A stretch of DNA of 42,666 nt, taken from Actinomycetes bacterium (GTDB taxonomy: Bacteria > Actinomycetota > Acidimicrobiia > Acidimicrobiales > GCA-2861595). Below are positions 1-38,027 of the stretch, one piece after another (position 1 is the stretch's first letter; each line of letters opens with the position of its first letter). Below the pieces are notes generated by a model. That model worked only from the letters and a program-made list of their open reading frames with translations. It ran no database searches and was not told the origin of the DNA. The position numbers were made by a program, and so were the translations under genes. Where the stretch lies: contig JAHFUS010000034.1 in NCBI GenBank assembly GCA_023264975.1, positions 1 through 42,666 of the forward strand. Reading direction: 5' to 3'.

Positions 1-357
1 AATCGATTTCAGCTCGTCCCTGGCTGTCCTCAAGCCGGCGACCTGGGCAAACGGGGCCTCCTCGTCGAAGAGGTTGAACCGGTCCAGGTGGGCGTCGAGG
101 TACCGGTCGAGGCCAGCCCGATCGAGGGTCCCGGCCAGACGACGCTCGGCCCAGTTGTCCTCCCCTGTGGGTGCCCCCAGCGCGTCGAGGACGACGGGGA
201 GGAGCACCTGGCGGAGGACGGCGACGAGAACGGTCGGAGCGAGCACCAGATCCTTGATCTGGTGGCTGTCGACCAAGGCTCGCCGGAGGGACACCTTGGC
301 CGGCCCGCCACCCGTGCTGATCGGGAGCCAGGGGTCGTCGATCAGGTTGCATCGCAC
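1..357 (-). CDS. cse1: Cse1/Cas8e (type I-E Cascade large subunit), 5' part only
   Basis: This is the N-terminal 119 codons of the large subunit of the type I-E Cascade, which recognises the PAM; the gene runs off the left edge. The frame is fully open from a GTG at 357, with GGAG seven bases upstream. The product begins VRCNLIDDPWLPIST, the usual Cse1 opening, and contains RFNLFDEEAPFAQVAGL at about residues 91-107, matching the conserved 'F.LF....PF.Q' block near the N-terminus of the family. It lies 182 bp downstream of cas3 on the same strand, the standard I-E order cas3-cse1. Function is from family knowledge; only the N-terminus is visible, so completeness cannot be judged. Confidence 0.85.
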   Translation of the reverse strand, partial: MRCNLIDDPWLPISTGGGPAKVSLRRALVDSHQIKDLVLAPTVLVAVLRQVLLPVVLDALGAPTGEDNWAERRLAGTLDRAGLDRYLDAHLDRFNLFDEEAPFAQVAGLRTARDELKSI

Positions 358-378
358 AGGGCCACTCCTTCAGCGCCT

Positions 379-384
379 AGATTA
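379..384 (-). promoter_or_regulatory. Possible -10 element for cse1
   Basis: TAATCT on the minus strand lies about 22 bases upstream of the cse1 GTG. No good -35 is visible 17 bases further up. The 182-bp gap between cas3 and cse1 leaves room for a separate Cascade promoter, but this is only a plausible hexamer. Confidence 0.25.
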
Positions 385-418
385 CGCAAGTAGCTGGTCG
401 GGGAAGACACTAGTTCGT

Positions 419-437
419 CCTGGCGATCCACGCCAGG
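419..437. promoter_or_regulatory. Inverted repeat in the cas3-cse1 gap, possible operator
   Basis: CCTGGCG-ATCCA-CGCCAGG is a perfect 7-bp inverted repeat with a 5-base centre, 35 bases upstream of the possible cse1 -10. It could be a repressor site for the Cascade genes; no regulator gene is visible nearby. Confidence 0.3.
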
Positions 438-477
438 GTTATCCATGGCTCGTCGGCGAACCCATCGCCAGCCACTG

Positions 478-507
478 GTCGTCCCCGCCCCGCGGGGTTT
501 CCCCGAC
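478..507. repeat. GC hairpin in the cas3-cse1 gap, resembling a degenerate I-E repeat
   Basis: The stretch contains the palindrome CCCCGCGGGG and, read on the minus strand, CGGGG-AAA-CCCCG just beyond the cas3 stop. The plus-strand start GTCGTCCCCGC followed by GCGGGG looks like the stem of actinobacterial type I-E CRISPR repeats, but there is only one copy and no spacers. It may equally be a terminator for cas3. Confidence 0.3.
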
Positions 508-539
508 AAGCTGCGACGAGCTGCAAGGTCCGCGGGCGG

Positions 540-3425
540 TCATCGCCGTTGTCCGATCTCAAGGCCGTTCTCGTCGTCGTACGTCACCAGGCGGCCGTCG
601 AGCTCGGCCCGGCGCGATCGATCCAGTCGGAGCGCACGGGCCTTGCCGAGCCACGGGTCGCCGTCCCAACCCGGCAGGGGCCGTAGCTCGTACACCGCCG
701 CGGCGATGGCGGCGTCGTACGCCGGGAGTCGGACGCTCGACCCCAGGACCTCCTCGGGACGGTTGCAACCTGCCTCCCCGGTAGGACCAAGCCTCAGCCC
801 CTCAACGGTTCGCAAGTCACCGTCGTCGTCGATGACGACGACCACCTCCTCGCCCATCTCGCCATCACGGACTCGCACGTGCCGCTCGACATCGGTTGCC
901 TGCCCGCCACGGGTATGCAACCCCGCAAGCGTCGGGACGTAGCGCTGGTCAGCCGCGGTCAACAGGTAGGGCTTGGCGGCCCTGCGCCGCTCGGCTTCCT
1001 TGATGGCCCACTCCGCCGCAGCCTGGGCCTCGTCGGCGGCCCACTCGCCTGGGACAGCGTGGCACTCCTGGCCGGTCCCGTAAGCGGTGGCCACCAGCGC
1101 AGGGACATCGGCGGGCACAGACCACCCCGTTCCACCGGCGGCGGCGTTCACCAGTGCCGCCGACCGGAGCAGGTGATGGCGGCCGTAGATCGCCTCGCTC
1201 CCCGCCGGGAACCATGGATTTCCCGCCCCGAAGCGGAGCCCGGTGACGACGATCTCAGGCAGCCGTACGGCCGCGGGCCGGGCAGAGGTGGGGCGGTCGT
1301 GGCGGTGGACCCGGCCGGCTCGCTGCAGCAGGAGGTCGACCGGGGCAAGGTCGGTGACGAGGACATCGGCGTCGATGTCGAAGGACTGCTCGGCGACTTG
1401 GGTCGCGACGACGACCAGCCGGTCCGGCCGCAACCGGCCATCTGCGCCGAGGCGGTTCAGGAGCACCTTCGTCTTGCGGGCGCGGGCTTCCGCGGTGAAG
1501 CGGCTGTGCAGGAGGACAACGTCGTCCCCGAAGCTCTCCCGCAAGCGCCGGTAGGTCTGCTGCGCCCGAGCCACGGTGTTCCGGATGACGAGCGCGCACC
1601 CGCCCCCGCGCAGCCTGCCCGCGAGGGCGTCGAGGACTGCGCCGTCGCTGTCCGTCCCGTCCTCCTCGCAGAGTGACACCTCCATCTCGAGGCTCTGGCG
1701 CCATGCGCCAGCCGAGCGCACGTCGTACTGGGCAGCAGCGGGCCCGGGCCAGGCGCAGGTCACGCCCGGGTAGCCGTTCACGGCCGGGACCGGCGCAGCC
1801 GCCGTGGTCGTCGCAACCGTGGCGCCCTCGAGATACTGCGTGACGAGGCTGTCCCGCTGGGCCGGTGCGAGCGTGGCCGAGAGCAGCACTACGGGGACCG
1901 TGCCGTTTCCCAGCCACCAGAGGACCTCGGCGAGGAACTGCGCCATCGAGGTATCGGTGGCGTGGACCTCGTCGAAGATGACCACCTTCCCGGCCAGGCC
2001 GGCGTAGCGGAGGGCGACGTACTTGGTGCGCGTGCCGGCGTAGAGAACCTGGTCGATGGTGCCGACGCAGTTGGCGGCGAGCAACCCGCGGTGCCGCCCG
2101 AAAAACCACTCGGCGGGTCGGCCGGCCTCGTCCTCCCCCGCCGGAAGGTCCTCGCACACGCTCGCGAACGACGGCGCACCGGTCGCCATGCCGTACCCGT
2201 CGACATCCTCCCCCTGGCCGTCGTGAGCCGTGACGGAGCGCTCCCGGGCCCGGATGCGTTCGCTCAGTAGCCTGCGACCGTGGAGGAGAGCGAGGTCGGG
2301 CCGGGCCTCGAACGACCCGAGCCACCTGTTCACCCGGTCGTACATCGCATCGCTGGTGGCCTGGGTCGGCATGGCGACATAGACCCCGTCGCACCCGAAT
2401 CGGGCGGCGAGGATCTCGGCGGCAGCCAGTGCTGCCTCGGTCTTGCCCTCTCCCATCGGTGCCTCCACGACCATCAGCCCGGGCACGGGCATGGACTCGG
2501 CTGCTTCGACCACCATGGCCTGAAAGGGTCGGGGCGCCTGGCCGAACCGCTCCAGGAAGTGGCCGGCGCCTGGTGAGTCAAGGGAACCCCAGCCGCCACG
2601 GAGTCCGAGCCAGGACCATGCAGCGACGGCCCTATGGCGCGCGCCCTCCATGCTGACGTCGTCGAAACACGCGACCCCGCGGAAGTGGGTCTCGTCGCTG
2701 GCGCTGGCGATCCAGTCGGCCATCGAGATGAAGCCGCTCAGCGCCAACTGATCGGCACGTGACGGGGCGCGAACCGGCTGCGCCGACTCCAGGTCCGGCC
2801 AACCGGCGGCGGCCGTGACTATCCGAACGAGGAGGTCCTGGACCGGGACCCACGTCGCGTCGCCGTGGACGAGCCGGCGCAGCTTGGAACGCAGAGGAGA
2901 GGACATGTCGACCTGGCCTGTCGACGGAAAGGCGCCGTGATGGCCGGCGGCGAGCGGCCAGATCCAGTCGCTCTGGAGGCGCCCGCCGGGCCAGGCGGCC
3001 TTGAGCACCTCCCGGAGAATGCAGGCACTGGCGCGCTCATGGCGCCAGCCCGAACGATCCTCCTTGCTCGGCGGGCTGGAGGGCCAGGTCAGGCCCGAGT
3101 CCAGCACGCGCTGGCCCAACTCCAGGACGACCCCCTGGAAGGCCGGGCTGGCCTTGCCCACGTCGTGGAGGCCGCAGAGCCAGGCGTAGAGCCGCCGGCC
3201 CTCGCCGCCCGCCACTTCGTCGAGACGACCGCAGAGCGCCGGCGCGAGATAGCGGTCCCAGACGAGTTCGCCGACGGCCATCGTGTCGAACAGGTGCTGG
3301 AGGAGGAGGTTCTCCCGCCCACCCCCGAACTCCTTTGACTTGCCCCACAGGACCGCAACCTGCCCGGCAAGAATCGGATCGGTGACGAGCCGACGCCAGT
3401 CGTTGTCGGGGTCAGTGGGAGCCAC
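540..3425 (-). CDS. cas3: CRISPR-associated helicase/nuclease Cas3, type I-E
   Basis: Cas3 is recruited by target-bound Cascade to unwind and degrade DNA. The 961-residue product has an N-terminal HD nuclease domain (QHLFDT with H44, HDVGKASPAFQ at 87-97, GHH at 161-163, SMADWIAS at 234-241), then a superfamily 2 helicase: Walker A APMGEGKTE 322-330, DEVH 485-488, SAT 516-518, and QRAGRVHRH near the end of the helicase core, followed by the Cas3 C-terminal domain. The open frame extends upstream, but the GTG at 3425 is preferred because AGAGGAG sits six bases before it and it matches the family start. It overlaps the exonuclease gene upstream by 14 bp, so the two are probably translated together. 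All key catalytic motifs are present. Confidence 0.93.
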   Translation of the reverse strand: MAPTDPDNDWRRLVTDPILAGQVAVLWGKSKEFGGGRENLLLQHLFDTMAVGELVWDRYLAPALCGRLDEVAGGEGRRLYAWLCGLHDVGKASPAFQGVVLELGQRVLDSGLTWPSSPPSKEDRSGWRHERASACILREVLKAAWPGGRLQSDWIWPLAAGHHGAFPSTGQVDMSSPLRSKLRRLVHGDATWVPVQDLLVRIVTAAAGWPDLESAQPVRAPSRADQLALSGFISMADWIASASDETHFRGVACFDDVSMEGARHRAVAAWSWLGLRGGWGSLDSPGAGHFLERFGQAPRPFQAMVVEAAESMPVPGLMVVEAPMGEGKTEAALAAAEILAARFGCDGVYVAMPTQATSDAMYDRVNRWLGSFEARPDLALLHGRRLLSERIRARERSVTAHDGQGEDVDGYGMATGAPSFASVCEDLPAGEDEAGRPAEWFFGRHRGLLAANCVGTIDQVLYAGTRTKYVALRYAGLAGKVVIFDEVHATDTSMAQFLAEVLWWLGNGTVPVVLLSATLAPAQRDSLVTQYLEGATVATTTAAAPVPAVNGYPGVTCAWPGPAAAQYDVRSAGAWRQSLEMEVSLCEEDGTDSDGAVLDALAGRLRGGGCALVIRNTVARAQQTYRRLRESFGDDVVLLHSRFTAEARARKTKVLLNRLGADGRLRPDRLVVVATQVAEQSFDIDADVLVTDLAPVDLLLQRAGRVHRHDRPTSARPAAVRLPEIVVTGLRFGAGNPWFPAGSEAIYGRHHLLRSAALVNAAAGGTGWSVPADVPALVATAYGTGQECHAVPGEWAADEAQAAAEWAIKEAERRRAAKPYLLTAADQRYVPTLAGLHTRGGQATDVERHVRVRDGEMGEEVVVVIDDDGDLRTVEGLRLGPTGEAGCNRPEEVLGSSVRLPAYDAAIAAAVYELRPLPGWDGDPWLGKARALRLDRSRRAELDGRLVTYDDENGLEIGQRR

Positions 3426-18450: not shown

Positions 18451-19026
18451 TCAGCCGGGGCCGAAGTCGCCGGCCGCGCCCAGGTTCACCACCGTGCCGT
18501 CGGCCGCCGTGATCCAGTAGCCGTCGCCCTTCGGCGTGCGGGTGAGAGCGACCGTCGGCGACGCGATCCCCCGGCCGGCGGCGGAACCGAGGAAGGTCGC
18601 GTCGCCGAAGGCGAAGACCCCACCGTCGGACGCGACCAGCCAGTAGCCGGCGCCGCCGGCCGACGGCGCCATAGCCACGATGGGCTGGGCCAGGCGGATG
18701 TTCCCGGTGCTGCCCTTGAAGGCGGCGCTGCCGAAGTTGAAGATGCCGCCGTCGGCCGCCACCAGCCAATAGCCCTTGCCGTCGGCCGTCGCCGAGATGC
18801 CCACCACCGGCGAGTTGAGGCGCATGGCGCCGGTGCTGCCATAGAACGTGGCGTTCCCGAAGCTGAAGACGCCGCCGTCGCTCGCCACCAGCCAGTACCC
18901 GCCGCCGTTCGGCGTCGGCGCCATGGCGATGATCGGGGCATTGAGCCTGAGGTCGCCCGTGCTGCCGTGGAAGGCGGCGCTGCCGAAGTTGAAGATGCCG
19001 CCGTCGGCGCCGAGGAGCCAGTAGCC
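18451..19026 (-). repeat. 126-bp tandem repeats in the M15 peptidase gene
   Basis: The codons for Gly-Tyr-Trp recur with right edges at 19026, 18900, 18774, 18648 and 18522, an exact 126-bp (42-codon) spacing with no indel, giving four full units and a partial fifth. Units two and four, and one and three, are most alike, suggesting pairwise duplication. Confidence 0.9.
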
Positions 19027-19803
19027 GTCGCGGTCGGGGGTGGGGGCGGCGCCGACGATCACCCAGCTGAGTGGCACTGCGTCAACTGCGCCGAACGAGC
19101 GGGCGCTGCCCTTCGGGATGACGGCGCCGAGCCCGGTGACGGCCGCGTACCCGCCACCGTCGGCCGCCGGTAGGAGGGACACCACGTCGGCCCGCACGGG
19201 GCCGCCGCCGACGGTGCCGCCGTCGCCCACCCACTCCCAGTGCCACTGCTCGGGGCACGCGCTGCCGCCCGGCTCGGCCCAGCCGGGGTGGTTCCACCCG
19301 ACCGCCGCGCCACGCGCCTTGAGGAACCGGTAACCCGGCGACGAGAAGGTGATGCCACGCGGCTCGGAGAAGTCGACCGCCTTGCCCCACCCGTGCATGG
19401 AGGTGCCTCGGGGCCGGCCGTCGGGATAGGTGGCAGGTGTGGCCGCACAGGCGCTGTTGCCAGCTGCGGTGGCGTTGGCCGACGCCGAGACCTGCCCGCT
19501 CAGGGGCCGGTAGCAGTCCCGGGCGCCGAGACCGACGTTGGCGCCGGCCGCCATGCGGTAGAGCAGGGCCAGGCTGGGCGCCGCCTCACGGGACACCCTG
19601 CAGCCGGGGATCACCGTGATTAGCCGGTCGCCGCCGACATACCCGTTCTCGGCGCCGGCCAACGCGGTGGGGCGGTTGCCCGGCTGGATGGCGGGAACGG
19701 CGGCCATCGCCGGCGAGGAGACGGCGACCGACGTCGCCGCCGCAAGAACGGCGGCCGCGGTGCTGGTGGCGAGAAAGAAGAGCGGTCGCCGTGTGCTGCG
19801 CAT
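18451..19803 (-). CDS. Secreted M15-type D-Ala-D-Ala carboxypeptidase with beta-propeller-like repeats
   Basis: A 450-residue secreted protein. A basic start (MRSTRRP) and hydrophobic segment ending SSPAMAA form a signal peptide. Residues about 40-185 are a VanY/DacB-like peptidase of family M15: SMHGWGKAVDF supplies His and Asp ligands and EQWHWEWVG the last His with the catalytic Glu; CRVS...CYRP and CAATP may form disulfides. From about residue 255 come four and a half 42-residue repeats of the form GYWLVASDGGVFSFG...F.GSTG..RL..P, a likely propeller that may bind wall polymers. This repeat family is frequent in Acidimicrobiia. ATG 19803 gives a clean signal peptide; ATG 19818 adds five residues. 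The gene converges on pstB. Confidence 0.8.
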   Translation of the reverse strand: MRSTRRPLFFLATSTAAAVLAAATSVAVSSPAMAAVPAIQPGNRPTALAGAENGYVGGDRLITVIPGCRVSREAAPSLALLYRMAAGANVGLGARDCYRPLSGQVSASANATAAGNSACAATPATYPDGRPRGTSMHGWGKAVDFSEPRGITFSSPGYRFLKARGAAVGWNHPGWAEPGGSACPEQWHWEWVGDGGTVGGGPVRADVVSLLPAADGGGYAAVTGLGAVIPKGSARSFGAVDAVPLSWVIVGAAPTPDRDGYWLLGADGGIFNFGSAAFHGSTGDLRLNAPIIAMAPTPNGGGYWLVASDGGVFSFGNATFYGSTGAMRLNSPVVGISATADGKGYWLVAADGGIFNFGSAAFKGSTGNIRLAQPIVAMAPSAGGAGYWLVASDGGVFAFGDATFLGSAAGRGIASPTVALTRTPKGDGYWITAADGTVVNLGAAGDFGPG

Positions 19804-19846
19804 GCCAGATTCAACCATCCGCAGCGGTGTCCGTCGCAACGGCGGC

Positions 19847-20314
19847 TCAGCCGGCGCCGCCGCCCATCGCCTCGGCCGCCCGGCGCCCAATCTCCTCGGG
19901 CGAGACGTCCTCCACGTGCGACGCCACGCTCCAGCGGTGGCCGAACGGATCCTCGAGCAGGCCCATCCGGTCACCGTAGAACTGCGTCTCCACCGGCCGC
20001 AGTTCGGTGGCGCCGGCGGACAGCGCACGCGAGAAAACGTCGTCGACGTCCTCCACGTACAGACTGAGGGTGACCGGCGTGCCCCCGACGCTCTTGGGCG
20101 AGCGGTTGCCCATCTCCGGGAACTCGTCGGAGAGCATGATGACCGAGTCGCCCAGCTGGAGCTCGGCATGGCCGATCGTGCCGCCGGGCGCCGGCACGCG
20201 GGACCGCTCCTTGGCGCCGAACACGTCGGTGTAGAAGTCGATGGCGGCGCCGGCGCCGGCGATGCGGAGGTACGGGGACAGCTGCGGATAGCCGTCGGGA
20301 ATCGCCTTGGCCAT
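19847..20314 (-). CDS. VOC-family (glyoxalase/bleomycin-resistance, PhnB-like) protein
   Basis: A 155-residue vicinal-oxygen-chelate protein: YPQLSPYLRIAGAGAAIDFYTDVFGAKERSR, then GHAELQLGDSVIMLSDE, LYVEDVDDVFSRALSAGATEL and the FYGDRMGLLEDPFGHRWSVASHVEDVSPEEI tail characteristic of the PhnB-like 'glyoxalase' subgroup. The metal ligands (His in GHAEL, Glu/His in the tail) appear present. ATG 20314 follows AGGAG at seven bases. It sits downstream of an ArsR gene with a perfect palindrome between them. The substrate is unknown. Confidence 0.85.
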   Translation of the reverse strand: MAKAIPDGYPQLSPYLRIAGAGAAIDFYTDVFGAKERSRVPAPGGTIGHAELQLGDSVIMLSDEFPEMGNRSPKSVGGTPVTLSLYVEDVDDVFSRALSAGATELRPVETQFYGDRMGLLEDPFGHRWSVASHVEDVSPEEIGRRAAEAMGGGAG

Positions 20315-31018: not shown

Positions 31019-32359
31019 TCAGGCGTGATGCGAGAGCCAGCGGGGCAACAGCTCCACGATGTCGCCGGCCACCAGCCCGCGCTCGGGACCGAGGGCGGCG
31101 GCCGCCCCGTGGGCGTGGGCCCCGAGCGACGCCGCGTCGAGGCCGTCGAGGCCGCAGGCCAGGAAGGCGCCGATGACGCCGGAGAGGACGTCGCCCGACC
31201 CGGCCGTGGCCAGCCGTGGTCCGCCGCTCGTCACGAACCGGACCTCGCCACCCGGCGCGGCGACGACGGTGGTCGGGCCCTTGAGCAGGGCGACGGCACC
31301 GGTCCGCTCGGCCAGCGCCCGCACTGCGCCCACACGGTCGGCCCCGGGCGCCGACCCGCAGAGCCTGCGGTATTCACCCTCGTGGGGCGTGAGCACCCGC
31401 GGGGCCTCGCCGGGCACCAGCCCGTCGACGGCGGCCAGCCCGTCCGCGTCAACCACCGCCGGGTGCGACGCCCCGCCCAGTAGGCGGCGCACCTCGCCCA
31501 CCGTGCGGCTGTCCCGGCCCAGCCCGGGGCCCACGACGAGCGACCTGCAGCGCTCAGCCGCCTCGAGGGCAGCGGCGGCCCAGCCCTCGGCCGGCAGCGG
31601 CACACCTACCATCTCGGCCAGCGGCAGCAAGGCCAGGTCGGCGCCCGGGACGCCGAGGCGCACGCTGCCTGCTCCCGCCCGCATGGCGGCCCGACCGGCG
31701 AGCAGGGCCGCCCCGGTCAAGCCCGGCGACCCCGCAGCCACGAACACCGCCGCCTGCCACTTGTGCGACTCCCGCGGGCGCCGGGGCAGGCGGGCGGCGA
31801 CGTCGGCATCCTCCAGCAGGTGCATGCGGGCGCCGTCCACGTCGAGACCGATGTCGGCCACCTCGACCCGCCCGCTGTGGTCAGGGCCGGCGGCGAGGAG
31901 GAGGCCCGGCTTGAGGGCGGCGAAGGTGACGGTGACGTCGGCCCGCACGGCGCCGTCCTCCGCCTCTCCGGTGAGCCCGTCGACGCCCGAAGGTATGTCG
32001 ACGGCCAGCACCCGCACGCCCGCCGGGGAGCGGGGCGCCACGTACGAGCCGTGGAACCCGGTGCCGTAGGCGGCGTCGATGACGAGGTCGCACGGCGGCA
32101 GGTCGGCCGGCGACGAGGCGGCGTCGACCACCACCACGCGGGCGCCCCGCCGCCGCAGGCGGTCCGCCGCCGCCCGCCCGTCGGCCCCGTTGTTCCCCTT
32201 CCCGGCCACCACGACCACCCGACGGCCGTAGGTGCCGCCGAGCATCCGCTCCGCCTCCCGCGCCACTGCTGCCGCCGCCCGCTCCACCAGCATGTCCAAT
32301 GGCTCCGGCGCGGCGGCGTCCACCGCCGTCATCTCCTCGGGCGTGAGGACCGGGATCAC
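31019..32359 (-). CDS. nnr: Bifunctional NAD(P)H-hydrate epimerase/ADP-dependent dehydratase
   Basis: It repairs hydrated NAD(P)H. Residues about 1-205 are the YjeF_N epimerase ([55 protein letters not shown]); 206-446 the YjeF_C dehydratase ([69 protein letters not shown]). Length is normal. GTG 32359 is the likely start. It follows acpS but a 48-bp hairpin separates them. Confidence 0.95.
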
Positions 32360-32453: not shown

Positions 32454-32819
32454 TCACAGGGCGGCGACCACCGCTTCCGCCATGGTGTCGGTGTGGGTGA
32501 TCGAGACCCGGAAGGAGGTGACGCCCCGCTCCCCCGCCAGGGCGGCGGCCCGGCCCGAGAGCAGCAGCGACGGGGCGCCGCCCGGAGCGTTGCGCACCTC
32601 GACGTCGTGGAAGCCGAAGGCGCCGAGGCCCACGCCGAGCGCCTTCATGGTGGCCTCCTTCGCCGCGAAGCGGGCGGCCAGGCGGGGCGCCGGGTCGGTG
32701 AAGCGGGCGCTGTAGGCCCGCTCCCCCTCGGTGAACAGCCGCTCGGCCACGCCCGGCGTGCGGGCCAGCACGCGTCGGAACCGGCCGATCTCCACCACGT
32801 CGAGACCGAGGCCGATCAC
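32454..32819 (-). CDS. acpS: Holo-[acyl-carrier-protein] synthase
   Basis: AcpS adds 4'-phosphopantetheine to ACP. The 121-residue product has the Mg2+ site GLGLDVVEIGRF and FAAKEATMKALGVGLG, and ends in VSITHTDTMAEAVVAAL. The GTG start overlaps the glmS stop as GTGA. Confidence 0.95.
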   Translation of the reverse strand: MIGLGLDVVEIGRFRRVLARTPGVAERLFTEGERAYSARFTDPAPRLAARFAAKEATMKALGVGLGAFGFHDVEVRNAPGGAPSLLLSGRAAALAGERGVTSFRVSITHTDTMAEAVVAAL

Positions 32820-35800
32820 GTTCGCCAGCGGTCGGCCAGGATGTGGACGGGCTGGGTGAGCAGGTCGATCAGGTCCACGCGGTTCAAAACCTCCTCGTCG
32901 AACACCGGCTCCGTCTCGGTGACGGCGTCGACCAGGGCGTCGTAGCGGTCGCGGTAGCCCTGGAGCACGGCCAGTGCGCCGGCCGGCGGAAGCCGGTCGT
33001 GGAACCGGGCGTGCAGCAGCGTCATCCCCACCACCTGGGCGTCCTTGGTCTCGGGCACGAGCACGAAGGTGCGCCCGTCACGGCGGCCCCGGGCCACCGT
33101 GACCTCGCGCTCGCTGGCCGCCCGGTGCTTGGTACCGAGCAGCGCGGGGTTGTCGTTGACCCGAGACGACAGGTCGGCCGCCACGCCGCCCCGGTCGAGC
33201 ACACCGATGGTGGCAGTGCCGTCGGCCACCGATCCCTCGATGCGGTAGCGGATGTAGCCGGTGACCTCGGCCACCGCCGCGTCGAGGGCGGCAAGGGTGC
33301 GCAAGGCCCGGTAGCCCAGGCGGTCGCGCGCGGCGCCGGCGGCCAGCAGCTCGCCCACCAGCGGGACCCGGTACAACGCCTCCTCGGAGCGGGAGATGCC
33401 CACGGTGACGGTCTTGGCCTGGTGCTTGATGGCGTCGACCGGGCGAGTGAGCGCCTCGATGGCGCGGGTGAGAGCGTCGGTGAGGTCCTGGATGACGGCG
33501 CTGGGCGTGCCCACCTTGCCGAACTCCAGCTCGTAGCCGTCGAGGGGCGAGTGCTCCCGGGCGTAGCGGAGCAGCGAGCTCACCCGCACCGCCGTGGCCG
33601 CGTCGAGGCTGCCGTCGTAGACGCCGCCCCGCAGCGCCTCGAGGAACCGCCCGGCCGGTGCGTCGAGCCGGGGGGCCAGGTCGTGCAGCAGGTCGGCGCC
33701 GTCAGTCGCCGACGACACCACCGCCTCCACAGCGGCCCGGGCCTCCCGGAACGGCAGGGCCTGGGCATCGATGGCGAGGGCCGCCTCGTAGCCGAACAGG
33801 TGGCCCACCATGGCCGACAGGACGAACGCCAGCATGGGGTGTGCGGGCGGCACCTCGAGCACGTCGAGGGCGGCCGGATAGCGGGCCGCGCCCTCGGTGG
33901 CGATGACCACGGGCGCCGCCTTGTGGGCCCGGTAGATCGCCACCTCCTTGGCCACGTCGTCGGCGTTGGGGCCGGACAGACCGGCCGCGCACACGAGGAT
34001 CAGCGGCTCGGAGGACAGGTCGATGTGCTTCTTGTCCTCGGTGGCGTCGCAGGCGATCGACTTGTAACAGAGCTCCGACAGCTTGATCCGCACCTCGGCT
34101 GCGGCCACCCGGTTGGGCCCATTCCCCACGATCGCCCAGTGGCGACGCGACGGGGCGTGACTGGCGGCGGCGGCGCCGATGACAGCCCTCCGGGCCAGCA
34201 CCTCCTCCATGGCCGCCGGCAGGTCGCGCAGGCCGACCAGCAGCTCGGTCGCCCGCCGGCGGTCGCCGCACCCGGCCTCGTCGGCCACAGCCAGCGCCAG
34301 GAGGAACCCGGCTGCCACCTGGGCGTAGAAGGCTTTGGTGGACGGCACCGCCATCTCCACGTCCCGCCCGTCCGACGTGTAGAGCACGCCGTCAGCCCGC
34401 TGGGTGAGGTCGCTGTCACGCCGGTTCACGATGGCCACGACCGCCGCCCCGCGCGCCCTTACCAGGTCGACGGTGCGGTTGGTGTCGGTGGTCGTGCCCG
34501 ACTGACTGATGGCCACCACCAATGTGTCACTCATGTCGTCGTCGAGGCCGAATCCCGACAGTTCGGTGGCGGGCAGGGCGTCGACCATGATGCCGGCGCC
34601 GGCGAGCCAGCCCGACAGGGCGGTGGCCAGGCTCTGGCCGGCGACCACGGCGGTGCCCTGGCCGATCACGCGGGCACGCCGGATGCCACCGCTGCGCAAC
34701 CGCTCCCGCAGCTCCGGTGGCAGCGTCTCGTTGCCGAGGACGACCCGCAGCTCGTTGCCGTCGCCGGTGATCTTGCCCCGGAGGGTCTTGCGAAACGACG
34801 ACGGCGCCTCGGTGACCTCCTTCAGCAGGAAGTGGCGGAAGCCGGCCCGGTCGATGTCGCGCGTGGTGATCTCGGCCGTGCGGATGTCGTCGTCGGTGAC
34901 GGGAAGGGGCGTGCCGTCGTATGCAAGGCGGGTGATGCCGTCGGTGGTGCCGGCGCCGGCCGCGTCGAGCACGACCACCTGGCCCGACCGGGCGCCGCCC
35001 TCGGGCGCCGACTCGCCGTCCATGCGCAGGTACCGGCTCGTCTCCTCCACCAGCCCGTAGGGCTCGCTGGCCACCACGAAGGCGTCCTCGGCCAGGCCCA
35101 CGTAGAGCGCCTGGCCGCTGCCGCGCAGGGCCAACAGCAGCTGGTCCGGAGCGTCGGCCGCCACCGCGCCGACAGCGGTGGAGCCCTCGAAGGAGTCGAC
35201 AGTGGCCCGGAAGGCATCGGCCACCCCGGCGCCGCCGCGCAGACGCCGCGACACCAGAATGGGGATCACCTTGGCGTCGGTGGTGAAGGCAGCCGGGATC
35301 GAAAGGCCGGCTGCGGCGATGAGCTCGGCGTAGTTGTCGACGTCGCCGTTGAGGGCGGCCGCCACGTAGGGCCCGCCTGCGTCGTCGTCCTCCTCCTGGT
35401 TGAGCGGGTGGGTGTTGGCCTGCGAGATGATGCCCACGCTCGCCCACCGGGTGTGCCCGAGCACCGTGGCCCGGGCCGTGCCGGCGGTGAGGGCCAGTTG
35501 CAGGAGCGGGTCGGCGGAGATGGCGGTGCGCAGGGTGCGGGTGTTGTCACCCAGCTCGCCGATCTCGGCCGCCGCCTTGTAGACGAAGGCCAGGTGGCCG
35601 GCGGGCGTGCGCACGGCCATGGACGGGAACAGCGGGTCGGTCGTGCGGCCGTCCAGCAACGAGTCGATGTGCTCGTCGTCGAAGTCGAGCCCGTGGCCGC
35701 TCACGAGCACGTGCAGGCCGGCCGAGTCACGACCGCGCACCTCCAGCCGGTCGATGCTCGAGAGGGCCGAGTGGATGGAGGAGTAGGCGGCGACGGTGGC

Positions 35801-36220
35801 CTCGCCCGCCCCGGGCCACGCCAGGCTGGCCACCGCCCGGGCGGCGGGGATGCGGTCGTGGCCGAGCGACCAGGACGCGTCCTTGATGCGCACGATGGCG
35901 GCGTTCACCGCCTCGAGATCGTCGGGCGACAGGCCAAGGTCGCCGGCGTCGAGCGCCGCCTCGAGCCGATCGACCGCCTGGTCGATCAGGCCGAGGGCCG
36001 CCTCCAGCACGGCAATCAGGTCGTGGGTGTCGAGCAGAGCCCGCATGCCGGGCGTGCCCCGCAGCGCGGTGTCGACCGACTCGAGGGCGGTGGCCGCGTC
36101 ACCGAGGGTGCCGGTGGCCCCGAGGGCGGCCCGGGCCGCTTCCAGGCCAGCCGTGATCTCGGCGACAGGGGGGGGTGGGCGCCGGCTGGGCCGGCGCAGG
36201 ATGGCGACGATGCCGCACAT
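32816..36220 (-). CDS. glmS: Oversized glutamine-fructose-6-phosphate aminotransferase (GlmS)
   Basis: GlmS makes glucosamine-6-phosphate for the wall. Canonical enzymes are about 610 residues; this one is 1134 with no frame break. The glutaminase domain keeps Cys2 (MCGIVAI), then a helical insertion of about 130 residues precedes RGRDSAG (162-168), GHTRWAS (255-261) and NGDVDNY (291-297). The isomerase half has KEVTEAP (467), SQSGTTTDT (572-580), PSTKAF (626-631), and in the second SIS domain E715 and KKH 730-732. AKTVTV with K936 matches the tail lysine of E. coli GlmS that binds fructose-6-phosphate, so the extra about 194 residues follow the catalytic end. The extension has no recognised domain. 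glmM lies upstream and acpS overlaps its end. Confidence 0.88.
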   Translation of the reverse strand: MCGIVAILRRPSRRPPPPVAEITAGLEAARAALGATGTLGDAATALESVDTALRGTPGMRALLDTHDLIAVLEAALGLIDQAVDRLEAALDAGDLGLSPDDLEAVNAAIVRIKDASWSLGHDRIPAARAVASLAWPGAGEATVAAYSSIHSALSSIDRLEVRGRDSAGLHVLVSGHGLDFDDEHIDSLLDGRTTDPLFPSMAVRTPAGHLAFVYKAAAEIGELGDNTRTLRTAISADPLLQLALTAGTARATVLGHTRWASVGIISQANTHPLNQEEDDDAGGPYVAAALNGDVDNYAELIAAAGLSIPAAFTTDAKVIPILVSRRLRGGAGVADAFRATVDSFEGSTAVGAVAADAPDQLLLALRGSGQALYVGLAEDAFVVASEPYGLVEETSRYLRMDGESAPEGGARSGQVVVLDAAGAGTTDGITRLAYDGTPLPVTDDDIRTAEITTRDIDRAGFRHFLLKEVTEAPSSFRKTLRGKITGDGNELRVVLGNETLPPELRERLRSGGIRRARVIGQGTAVVAGQSLATALSGWLAGAGIMVDALPATELSGFGLDDDMSDTLVVAISQSGTTTDTNRTVDLVRARGAAVVAIVNRRDSDLTQRADGVLYTSDGRDVEMAVPSTKAFYAQVAAGFLLALAVADEAGCGDRRRATELLVGLRDLPAAMEEVLARRAVIGAAAASHAPSRRHWAIVGNGPNRVAAAEVRIKLSELCYKSIACDATEDKKHIDLSSEPLILVCAAGLSGPNADDVAKEVAIYRAHKAAPVVIATEGAARYPAALDVLEVPPAHPMLAFVLSAMVGHLFGYEAALAIDAQALPFREARAAVEAVVSSATDGADLLHDLAPRLDAPAGRFLEALRGGVYDGSLDAATAVRVSSLLRYAREHSPLDGYELEFGKVGTPSAVIQDLTDALTRAIEALTRPVDAIKHQAKTVTVGISRSEEALYRVPLVGELLAAGAARDRLGYRALRTLAALDAAVAEVTGYIRYRIEGSVADGTATIGVLDRGGVAADLSSRVNDNPALLGTKHRAASEREVTVARGRRDGRTFVLVPETKDAQVVGMTLLHARFHDRLPPAGALAVLQGYRDRYDALVDAVTETEPVFDEEVLNRVDLIDLLTQPVHILADRWRT

Positions 36221-36283
36221 GGCCTAGCGCACCACCCCGCAGGTTCCCGTGGCGTCACCTACAGGATGGAACACCGGAAAAGC

Positions 36284-37624
36284 TTACGGCCCGAGGACCC
36301 GGGCCACCTCCGCCGCCAGGCGCAGAGCGACCCCTTCCGCCTGCTCCTCGGTCTGGGCCTCCACCATCACCCGTACGACCGGCTCGGTGCCGCTCGGGCG
36401 CACGAGCACGCGACCGCCGGCGCCCAGGCGGGCCTGCTCGGCCTCGACCGCGGGTGCCATCAACCGGATGGCGTCGCCGTCGGCCCTTGCCGCAACCGCC
36501 ACGTTGCGCAGGACCTGGGGCAACCGGGTCATGGCCTTCGATGCCAGGTCGGCCAGCGGGCGGCCCGTCCGGGCGACGATGTCGAGCACCTGCAACCCGG
36601 TGAGGATGCCGTCGCCGGTGGTGGCCAGGGCCCGGAAGATCAGGTGCCCGGACTGCTCGCCTCCGAGCGACCAGCCGCCGGCGTCGAGCGCCTCGAGCAC
36701 GTGGCGGTCGCCCACCGGCGTCTCATGCACTGCGATCCCGGCCGCCTCCATGGCGCGGCGGAACCCGAGGTTGGTCATCACCGTGACGACCACCGTGTCG
36801 TCCTTCAGGCGGCCCCGCCCGCGCAGGTCGAGGGCGCACAGGGCGATGAGGTGGTCGCCGTCGACAACGCCACCGGCTGCGTCGACCGCCAGCACCCGGT
36901 CGGCGTCGCCGTCGAAAGCAAAGCCCACGTCGGCGCCGAGCTCCACCACCGCCGTGCGCAGCGGGCCCAGGTCGGTCGACCCGCAGCCGGCGTTCACGTT
37001 GACGCCGTCCGGCGCCGCCCCGAGCACGTGGACGGTGGCGCCGGTGATGGCGAGGACGTCGGGAGCCACCGTCGACGCCGCCCCGTGACCGCAGTCGACC
37101 ACCACGGTGAGGTCTTCGAGAGTGCGCCCTTCGAGGGAGGAGATCAGGTGGGCTGCATAGGCCTCGACCGCAGCGGGGTCGAGGTCGAGGTGGCCGACGC
37201 CGGCGCCGGTGGGCCGGTCGCCCCCGGCCGTGCCCGCCACCAGCGCGTGCAGCTCCTGCTCGAGGGTCTGCTCCTCGGCGTCCGTGAGCTTGCGCCCGCC
37301 AGGCGCGAACAGCTTCACACCGTTGTCGGGGAAGGGGTTGTGCGACGCCGAGATGACGGCGCCCGGTGCGTCCCAGCGGGCCGACACGTAGGCCACACCC
37401 GGCGTGGGCAGCACGCCCAGGTCCACCACGGCCACGCCCTCCGACGCGGCGCCGGCCGAGAAGGCGGCCTGCAGCATGGGCCCCGACCGCCGGGTGTCAC
37501 GCCCCACCAGGAACGGCCCGCCCAACACGCGCGCCGCCGCCCGCCCGAGGGCGAGCACCAGCTCCGGGGTCAGCTCGGCGTTGGCCAGGCCCCGCACGCC
37601 GTCGGTGCCGAACTCGAGCGGCAC
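36284..37624 (-). CDS. glmM: Phosphoglucosamine mutase
   Basis: It converts GlcN-6-P from the next gene to GlcN-1-P. The 446-residue product has LEFGTDGVRG, the phosphoserine loop VISASHNPFPDNGVKLF, the Mg2+ loop FDGDADRVLAVD, GEQSGHLIF and the phosphate-binding RPSGTEPVVRVMVEA. GTG 37624 is the start. Ten bases separate it from rpsI. Confidence 0.96.
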   Translation of the reverse strand: MPLEFGTDGVRGLANAELTPELVLALGRAAARVLGGPFLVGRDTRRSGPMLQAAFSAGAASEGVAVVDLGVLPTPGVAYVSARWDAPGAVISASHNPFPDNGVKLFAPGGRKLTDAEEQTLEQELHALVAGTAGGDRPTGAGVGHLDLDPAAVEAYAAHLISSLEGRTLEDLTVVVDCGHGAASTVAPDVLAITGATVHVLGAAPDGVNVNAGCGSTDLGPLRTAVVELGADVGFAFDGDADRVLAVDAAGGVVDGDHLIALCALDLRGRGRLKDDTVVVTVMTNLGFRRAMEAAGIAVHETPVGDRHVLEALDAGGWSLGGEQSGHLIFRALATTGDGILTGLQVLDIVARTGRPLADLASKAMTRLPQVLRNVAVAARADGDAIRLMAPAVEAEQARLGAGGRVLVRPSGTEPVVRVMVEAQTEEQAEGVALRLAAEVARVLGP

Positions 37625-37634
37625 GGGTGTCCGC

Positions 37635-38027
37635 TCAGCGCTTCGAGTACTGCGGCGCCTTGCGGGCCTTCTTCAGGCCGTACTTCTTGCTTTCCTTCTC
37701 CCTGGCATCGCGGGTGAGAAAGCCTGCCTTCTTCAGCGTCGCCCGCTGCTCGGGGTCGAGTTCGACCAGGGCCCGGGCGATACCGAGGCGCAGGGCGCCG
37801 GCCTGGCCGGACGTGCCGCCGCCGTCGATGGTGGCGTCGATGTCGTAGACATCGGCCGTGTTTGTCGCCCGGAGCGGCTCGGTGGCCAGCGTGACCTGCA
37901 CTGCCGACGGGAAGTACTCCTCCACCGGGCGCTTGTTGATCGTGACGGTGCCGGTGCCGGGGCGGACCCGGACCCGGGCGACGGCCCGCTTGCGACGGCC
38001 GGTGGACTGGATGAGCGGCTTGGGCAT
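37635..38027 (-). CDS. rpsI: 30S ribosomal protein S9 (uS9)
   Basis: 130 residues: [32 protein letters not shown] at the start, [19 protein letters not shown] in the middle and the tRNA-contacting tail [17 protein letters not shown]. It follows rplM by 8 bp. Confidence 0.98.

Follow-up and report, generated by a model that had tools for sequence, protein, structure and literature searches.

Long GlmS proteins with a predicted GAF/PAS-like domain beyond the C-loop in Acidimicrobiia and in genomes labelled Planctomycetota

Introduction

GlmS is the enzyme that commits carbon and nitrogen to cell-wall synthesis. The canonical enzyme (TIGR01135), as in E. coli (PDB 2j6h, 1jxa), combines a glutaminase domain with two SIS lobes, and its chain finishes in the C-loop with the motif AKTVTV. 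Eukaryotic GFAT-1 is regulated. In the C-loop of the human protein, Lys676 is the Schiff-base lysine and Thr679 takes part in glutamine hydrolysis (PMC7000685). Ordering of the C-loop accompanies ring opening and channel formation, as the title of reference 41 in that paper puts it. Among these enzymes, UDP-GlcNAc is a reported feedback inhibitor of the eukaryotic form alone (PMC7000685).

Canonical bacterial GlmS is under the control of partner proteins. In Salmonella, GlmS is controlled in trans, via EIIANtr, by a GAF domain that senses glutamine and 2-oxoglutarate (PMC5024086). GlmR is a second named partner controlling canonical bacterial GlmS. To our knowledge, direct on/off switching has not been described for a bacterial GlmS. 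In glutamate/glutamine metabolism, the enzyme L-GDH180 of M. smegmatis (PDB 7jsr) contains a fused sensor-like domain, and its ACT/PAS segment was proposed to be a metabolic sensor (PMC8175468).

Here we describe a GlmS of 1134 amino acids encoded in a stretch of 42,666 nucleotides (positions 1 to 42,666 of contig JAHFUS010000034.1; hereafter the window) from an Acidimicrobiia genome. We found no GlmS of such size, or with a GAF domain, in the open-access literature. Our reading, to which we give a probability of roughly 0.55, is that the long GlmS is the cell's only GlcN6P synthase and bears a C-terminal GAF/PAS-like regulatory domain on its C-loop.

Results

The long glmS occupies positions 32816 to 36220 of the window on the reverse strand. 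The open reading frame has an ATG start and no internal stops, and the protein begins MCGI, with Cys2 as the catalytic cysteine; MCGI is invariant in 32 homologues. The original prediction of a GlmS-type enzyme about twice the normal size was correct. Aligned with E. coli GlmS (from NC_000913, whose numbering, C1 to K603, we use for reference residues), the protein has 525 extra residues, most of them in five places: 135 between Cys1 and Arg26, 49 between Arg26 and Arg73, 33 between Asp123 and Ser347, 105 between His504 and Lys603, and 193 past the E. coli C-terminus. A further 7 lie between Arg73 and Asp123 and 3 between Ser347 and Glu488. The insertions of about 130 residues near the N-terminus and about 100 before AKTVTV had both been anticipated, while the 49-residue insert was absent from that tally. 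A long tail had been anticipated as well, at about 194 residues after K936; 198 follow this lysine, and 194 is approximately the count after AKTVTV.

All parts of the gene lie on the reverse strand. Residues 1-9 (36194 to 36220) comprise the initial Met, Cys2 and the first strand of the glutaminase domain (3-9 in the predicted model). They are followed by an all-helical insert, residues 10-150 (35771 to 36193), that by alignment and model leads from this strand to the Arg26 region, with predicted helices at 19-32, 36-52, 55-64, 66-91 and 99-133; it is the least conserved part of the protein, with a dN/dS of 0.14 within the genus. The remainder of the glutaminase (class II amidotransferase) domain, residues 151-452 (34865 to 35770), has a smaller insert at about 175-210, a Pfam GATase_6 match at 251-386 and the residues R162, R258, W259, N291, G292 and D315, and the modelled glutaminase part matches 1xff with Z 30.5 over 2..452. 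Two SIS (isomerase) lobes, recognised by Pfam (SIS, 515-643), structure match and alignment, span residues 453-817 (33770 to 34864) and hold S572-Q573-S574-T577, V625, S627, K713, E716 and H732. A second helical insert, placed by alignment and model at residues 818-928 (33437 to 33769), precedes the conserved C-loop, residues 929-947 (DAIKHQAKTVTVGISR; 33380 to 33436), in which the Schiff-base lysine is K936 (codon 33413-33415), the counterpart of Lys676 in GFAT-1. The GAF/PAS-like tail domain and its closing helices, residues 948-1134 (32819 to 33379), were delimited from a separate model, Foldseek and VIA matches and dN/dS.

An Rfam scan of the window detected neither a glmS ribozyme nor any other Rfam element. 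A 1624-codon open frame on the forward strand (32843-37717) covers glmS and glmM; high G+C is the most likely reason for it. Elsewhere in the window, a tandem repeat of 126 bases in 3.4 copies (18604-19037) lies inside a long open frame at 18451-20169 on the reverse strand.

Seventeen catalytic or substrate residues are kept and are invariant in 39 long homologues: C1, R26, R73, W74, N98, G99, D123, S347, Q348, S349, T352, V399, S401, K485, E488, H504 and K603. These include, as expected of a GlmS/GFAT enzyme, the glutamine-site residues C2, R258, W259, N291, G292 and D315 of the long protein, its isomerase set K713, E716, H732 and K936, and its phosphate loop S572-Q573-S574-T577. The original statement that all key residues are kept holds for these seventeen, with the reservation that five other positions carry fixed changes in the long set: T76 to S, H77 to V (also I or M), C300 to Q, S303 to A and the terminal E608 to G. 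The loop around H504 is rewritten in the alignment. With H77, C300 and S303 replaced, the site for the sugar or for glutamine differs from that of canonical GlmS. The protein scores 218.9 bits against TIGR01135, about half the equivalog cut-off of 418.05, and long forms of both groups described below score about 160-240 bits; the family is therefore probably under-annotated.

The altered positions, the rewritten loop and a score so far under the curated cut-off could mean that the long form makes a different amino sugar phosphate, or that its added parts hold a second catalytic activity. We consider such a change of chemistry improbable, as the S303 to A replacement is also present in 2 of 10 canonical relatives, the gene sits in an operon with glmM, genomes that have glmM and glmU show by homology no GlmS besides the long form, and no catalytic domain in Pfam or in the sequences of solved structures matches the tail.

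The predicted structure places the GlmS core and its end. The whole-protein model (a monomer; pLDDT 86, pTM 0.74) matches E. coli GlmS 2j6h with Z 38.0 over 594 aligned residues, 2..942 on chain residues 1..608, and matches GFAT/GlmS isomerase domains and full-length GFAT-1/GlmS with Z 38-39. GFAT-1 (PDB 6r4e and others) shares the core fold (Z about 39), but its PDB chains, of about 680 residues, end at the C-loop, and its inhibitor UDP-GlcNAc binds in the isomerase domain (PMC7000685). Since model residue 942 superposes on E. coli residue 608, AKTVTV is, by sequence alignment and predicted structure alike, the true GlmS C-loop, as originally proposed, and the tail starts after it.

The C-loop itself is strongly conserved. 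Residues 929-947 are 100% identical in 5 of 5 comparisons with near relatives. HQAKTVTVG is invariant in the Acidimicrobiia long set and, in some of the planctomycete-labelled proteins, differs by one residue at the Thr or Val, and HQAK is invariant in 54 long members from both phyla. The model is of low confidence at 719-733, the loop with the His504 equivalent, and at 935-947 in the C-loop; given the low pLDDT there, the C-loop is possibly mobile. It had been argued that so long an extension must alter the covering of the fructose-6-phosphate site. As written, this is not supported, because the covering loop is conserved and only after it does the tail begin, as a domain of its own.

A model of the tail by itself, built with 54 homologues, was confident (pLDDT 92, pTM 0.85). 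The best structural match was the PAS-type region (174-358) of L-GDH180, with Z 10.0 over 157 residues and rmsd 4.0. The next were the GAF domain of PtsP/EINtr (PDB 3ci6; Z 7.5) and other GAF, PAS and Cache sensor domains (Z 6-7.5), all of which fall within the range that the tool calls 'common'. At these scores, the predicted sheet with flanking helices resembles the five-stranded GAF/PAS fold. By sequence, the tail in the window has no Pfam match, the best GAF_3 match among family members (L139) reaches 20.1 bits (E 9e-4, positions 4-114 of 129) against a gathering cut-off of 27, and a search of solved-structure sequences returned only noise (E 0.35). When profiles of the tail and of the PAS region of L-GDH were compared with hhalign, the probability was 1-2%, comparison of the inserts with L-GDH180 gave no support for homology, and the organism's own genome has no L-GDH match. 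As sequence profiles provide no link between the tail and L-GDH, we claim only a GAF/PAS-like fold for the tail. The arrangements also differ. In L-GDH180 the PAS domain is N-terminal, accompanied by ACT domains and attached to a different enzyme, and the tail, unlike the PtsP GAF domain, is fused to GlmS rather than to a kinase or phosphotransferase. With a GAF/PAS-like tail, the link to regulation that had been suggested for the extension is plausible.

The tail is most likely functional, since purifying selection on it equals that on the glutaminase domain: within the genus, dN/dS is 0.18 for both, 0.14 for the SIS lobes and 0.10-0.18 across all regions of the long form. Among 21 related genomes, the tail domain has a single match per genome in 17, and no stand-alone copy was seen; two short tail frames are explained by a frameshift (G450) and a contig edge (G451). 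In the former, a two-contig genome, the long glmS (L196, on G450:C1) is broken into two overlapping frames, which probably reflects a sequencing error.

A functional tail need not bind a ligand. GAF/PAS domains often act as dimerisation modules, and the helical inserts and tail may instead form, or lend stability to, a larger oligomer or the dimer interface. Two of the extra parts are helical inserts, of which one lies between the isomerase lobes and the C-loop, and in L-GDH180 the ACT domains make intersubunit contacts (PMC8175468). On the other hand, the most conserved tail positions include the charged or polar S1019, R1020, K1031, D1048, R1050 and H1070, with E1102 a further conserved charged residue. 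This pattern slightly favours a binding site but is not decisive, as these residues could contact the enzyme core rather than line a ligand pocket. We regard a purely structural role as unlikely, if the most serious of the alternatives.

The genomic context fits a working GlmS. Upstream in the same operon is glmM (36284 to 37624, reverse strand; TIGR01455, 491.6 bits, cut-off 447.55), encoding the next enzyme of the pathway. Downstream, the start of acpS (32454 to 32819, reverse strand) and the stop of glmS share 4 bases (GTGA), and a gene for an nnrD-type NAD(P)H-hydrate dehydratase/epimerase follows (31019 to 32359, reverse strand), both assigned by profile matches. The match of the latter protein to the YjeF N-terminal epimerase domain is partial, with its best stretch at 87-152. 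At 116 Acidimicrobiia loci, some on contigs too short to tell, glmM was found at 103, acpS at 88 and nnrD at 83. The order glmM-glmS-acpS-nnrD also occurs at several canonical loci, and in Acidimicrobiia the long form fills the slot that canonical glmS has in sister lineages, within Actinomycetota. None of these three genes was found near the planctomycete-labelled long glmS.

These neighbours bear on whether the tail binds a partner protein, as EIIANtr binds canonical GlmS, rather than a small ligand. The control of canonical GlmS by EIIANtr in Salmonella (PMC5024086) and by GlmR gives this idea precedent. However, no candidate partner gene is fused to the long glmS, the tested neighbours glmM, acpS and nnrD are housekeeping genes, and a search beside the planctomycete-labelled members found none of the three. 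We doubt that a protein partner accounts for the tail.

The long GlmS is the only one in its genome. This assembly, 98% complete, encodes no other GlmS over the cut-off and has glmU in addition to the glmM of the window; the absence of a standard glmS, whose presence would have counted against the original prediction, leaves that prediction standing. The best other TIGR01135 match (C72) is PurF by its sequence, and two weak matches (C73, C102) look like asparagine-synthetase-type amidotransferases. Among 22 further genomes with the long form, some of them single-contig, it is the sole GlmS in 21, with a second gene over the cut-off only in G321.

Nor is the long form a one-off, since GlmS proteins of more than 1000 residues form a widespread clade. 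In a class sample of 100 genomes, 96 of which had a match, the long form was found in 41 and the canonical form of about 610 amino acids in 55, with both at full length in none. Long and canonical forms thus nearly exclude each other. The long homologues in this sample have about 1,120-1,200 residues, a few being split over contig ends. With the architecture shared by 41 class-sample genomes, and found in a second phylum, the gene is neither a chance product nor an artefact of assembly fusion or frameshift. We also rejected a pseudogene, given the invariant catalytic sites and a within-genus dN/dS of 0.10-0.18 in the long regions.

Our in-depth sampling covered two phyla. Within Actinomycetota, the long form also occurs in other families (f36, f66, f63 and f43); the f43 genome carries a canonical copy as well and has 5% contamination. 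A contig scan found at least 80 long-form loci, mostly in Acidimicrobiia and a few labelled Planctomycetota, and 30 of 149 genomes of this second phylum have the long form. PF07596, a family that we take to be typical of Planctomycetes, is present in 4 of 9 long-bearing genomes with this label and absent from 5, so the label is probable rather than proved. No match in plasmid records covered 80% of the query, and only canonical-size relatives appeared among the best rows.

In a tree of 593 core columns, one branch parts the long from the canonical forms with SH-aLRT 100. The actinobacterial long forms nest among the planctomycete-labelled ones, and the root is not fixed. This topology fits a transfer of the long glmS between phyla. 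The long proteins, of 1,114-1,338 amino acids, constitute a separate clade, apparently undescribed.

Discussion

If the long GlmS is a sole GlcN6P synthase with its own regulatory domain, it would make GlcN6P from fructose-6-phosphate and glutamine by the usual chemistry, with a GAF/PAS-like domain joined straight to the C-loop that holds the Schiff-base lysine. A small metabolite may bind in or beside the tail as a nitrogen or amino-sugar signal, glutamine/2-oxoglutarate and UDP-GlcNAc being among the candidates. Binding would make the C-loop more or less ordered, tuning both closure over the sugar and transfer of ammonia; because the chain runs from the C-loop into the sensor-like domain, a ligand of the tail could act on the lid directly. 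The sensor would then lie in cis, as opposed to the control in trans of Salmonella GlmS.

Such an arrangement would place the first amino-sugar step of bacteria under direct allosteric control, so far reported for eukaryotic GFAT only. A whole bacterial clade, including complete genomes without another GlmS, relies on an enzyme whose catalytic C-loop bears a sensor-like domain, and the long GlmS offers a concrete, easily tested model of allosteric control in bacterial GlmS. It also shows an essential gene in two deeply diverged forms, each replacing the other in one operon position.

The planctomycete-labelled proteins differ at the N-terminus. In several of them (L146, L148, L149, L150, L152 and L153, and also L156 and L157) the catalytic Cys is internal, tens of codons into the frame, and this branch has no start codon beside the CG motif. 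In the first six, the leader upstream of CG is conserved (GTxVFFP......CG or similar). The internal Cys and the conserved leader suggest a propeptide that would have to be removed to expose the catalytic Cys, as in PurF. More tentatively, and at somewhat less than even odds in our judgement, the long proteins of both phyla would represent a second class of GlmS whose fused GAF/PAS-like domain acts as a metabolite sensor in cis, gating the C-loop for direct allosteric control, with the planctomycete-labelled branch also maturing its Cys by propeptide removal.

Long and canonical forms do meet in one complete genome, that of Aquihabitans sp. G128 (G287; L179, 1478722-1480530), which encodes both. 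Its canonical copy clusters with an actinobacterial copy (L170), away from the copies usual in the class.
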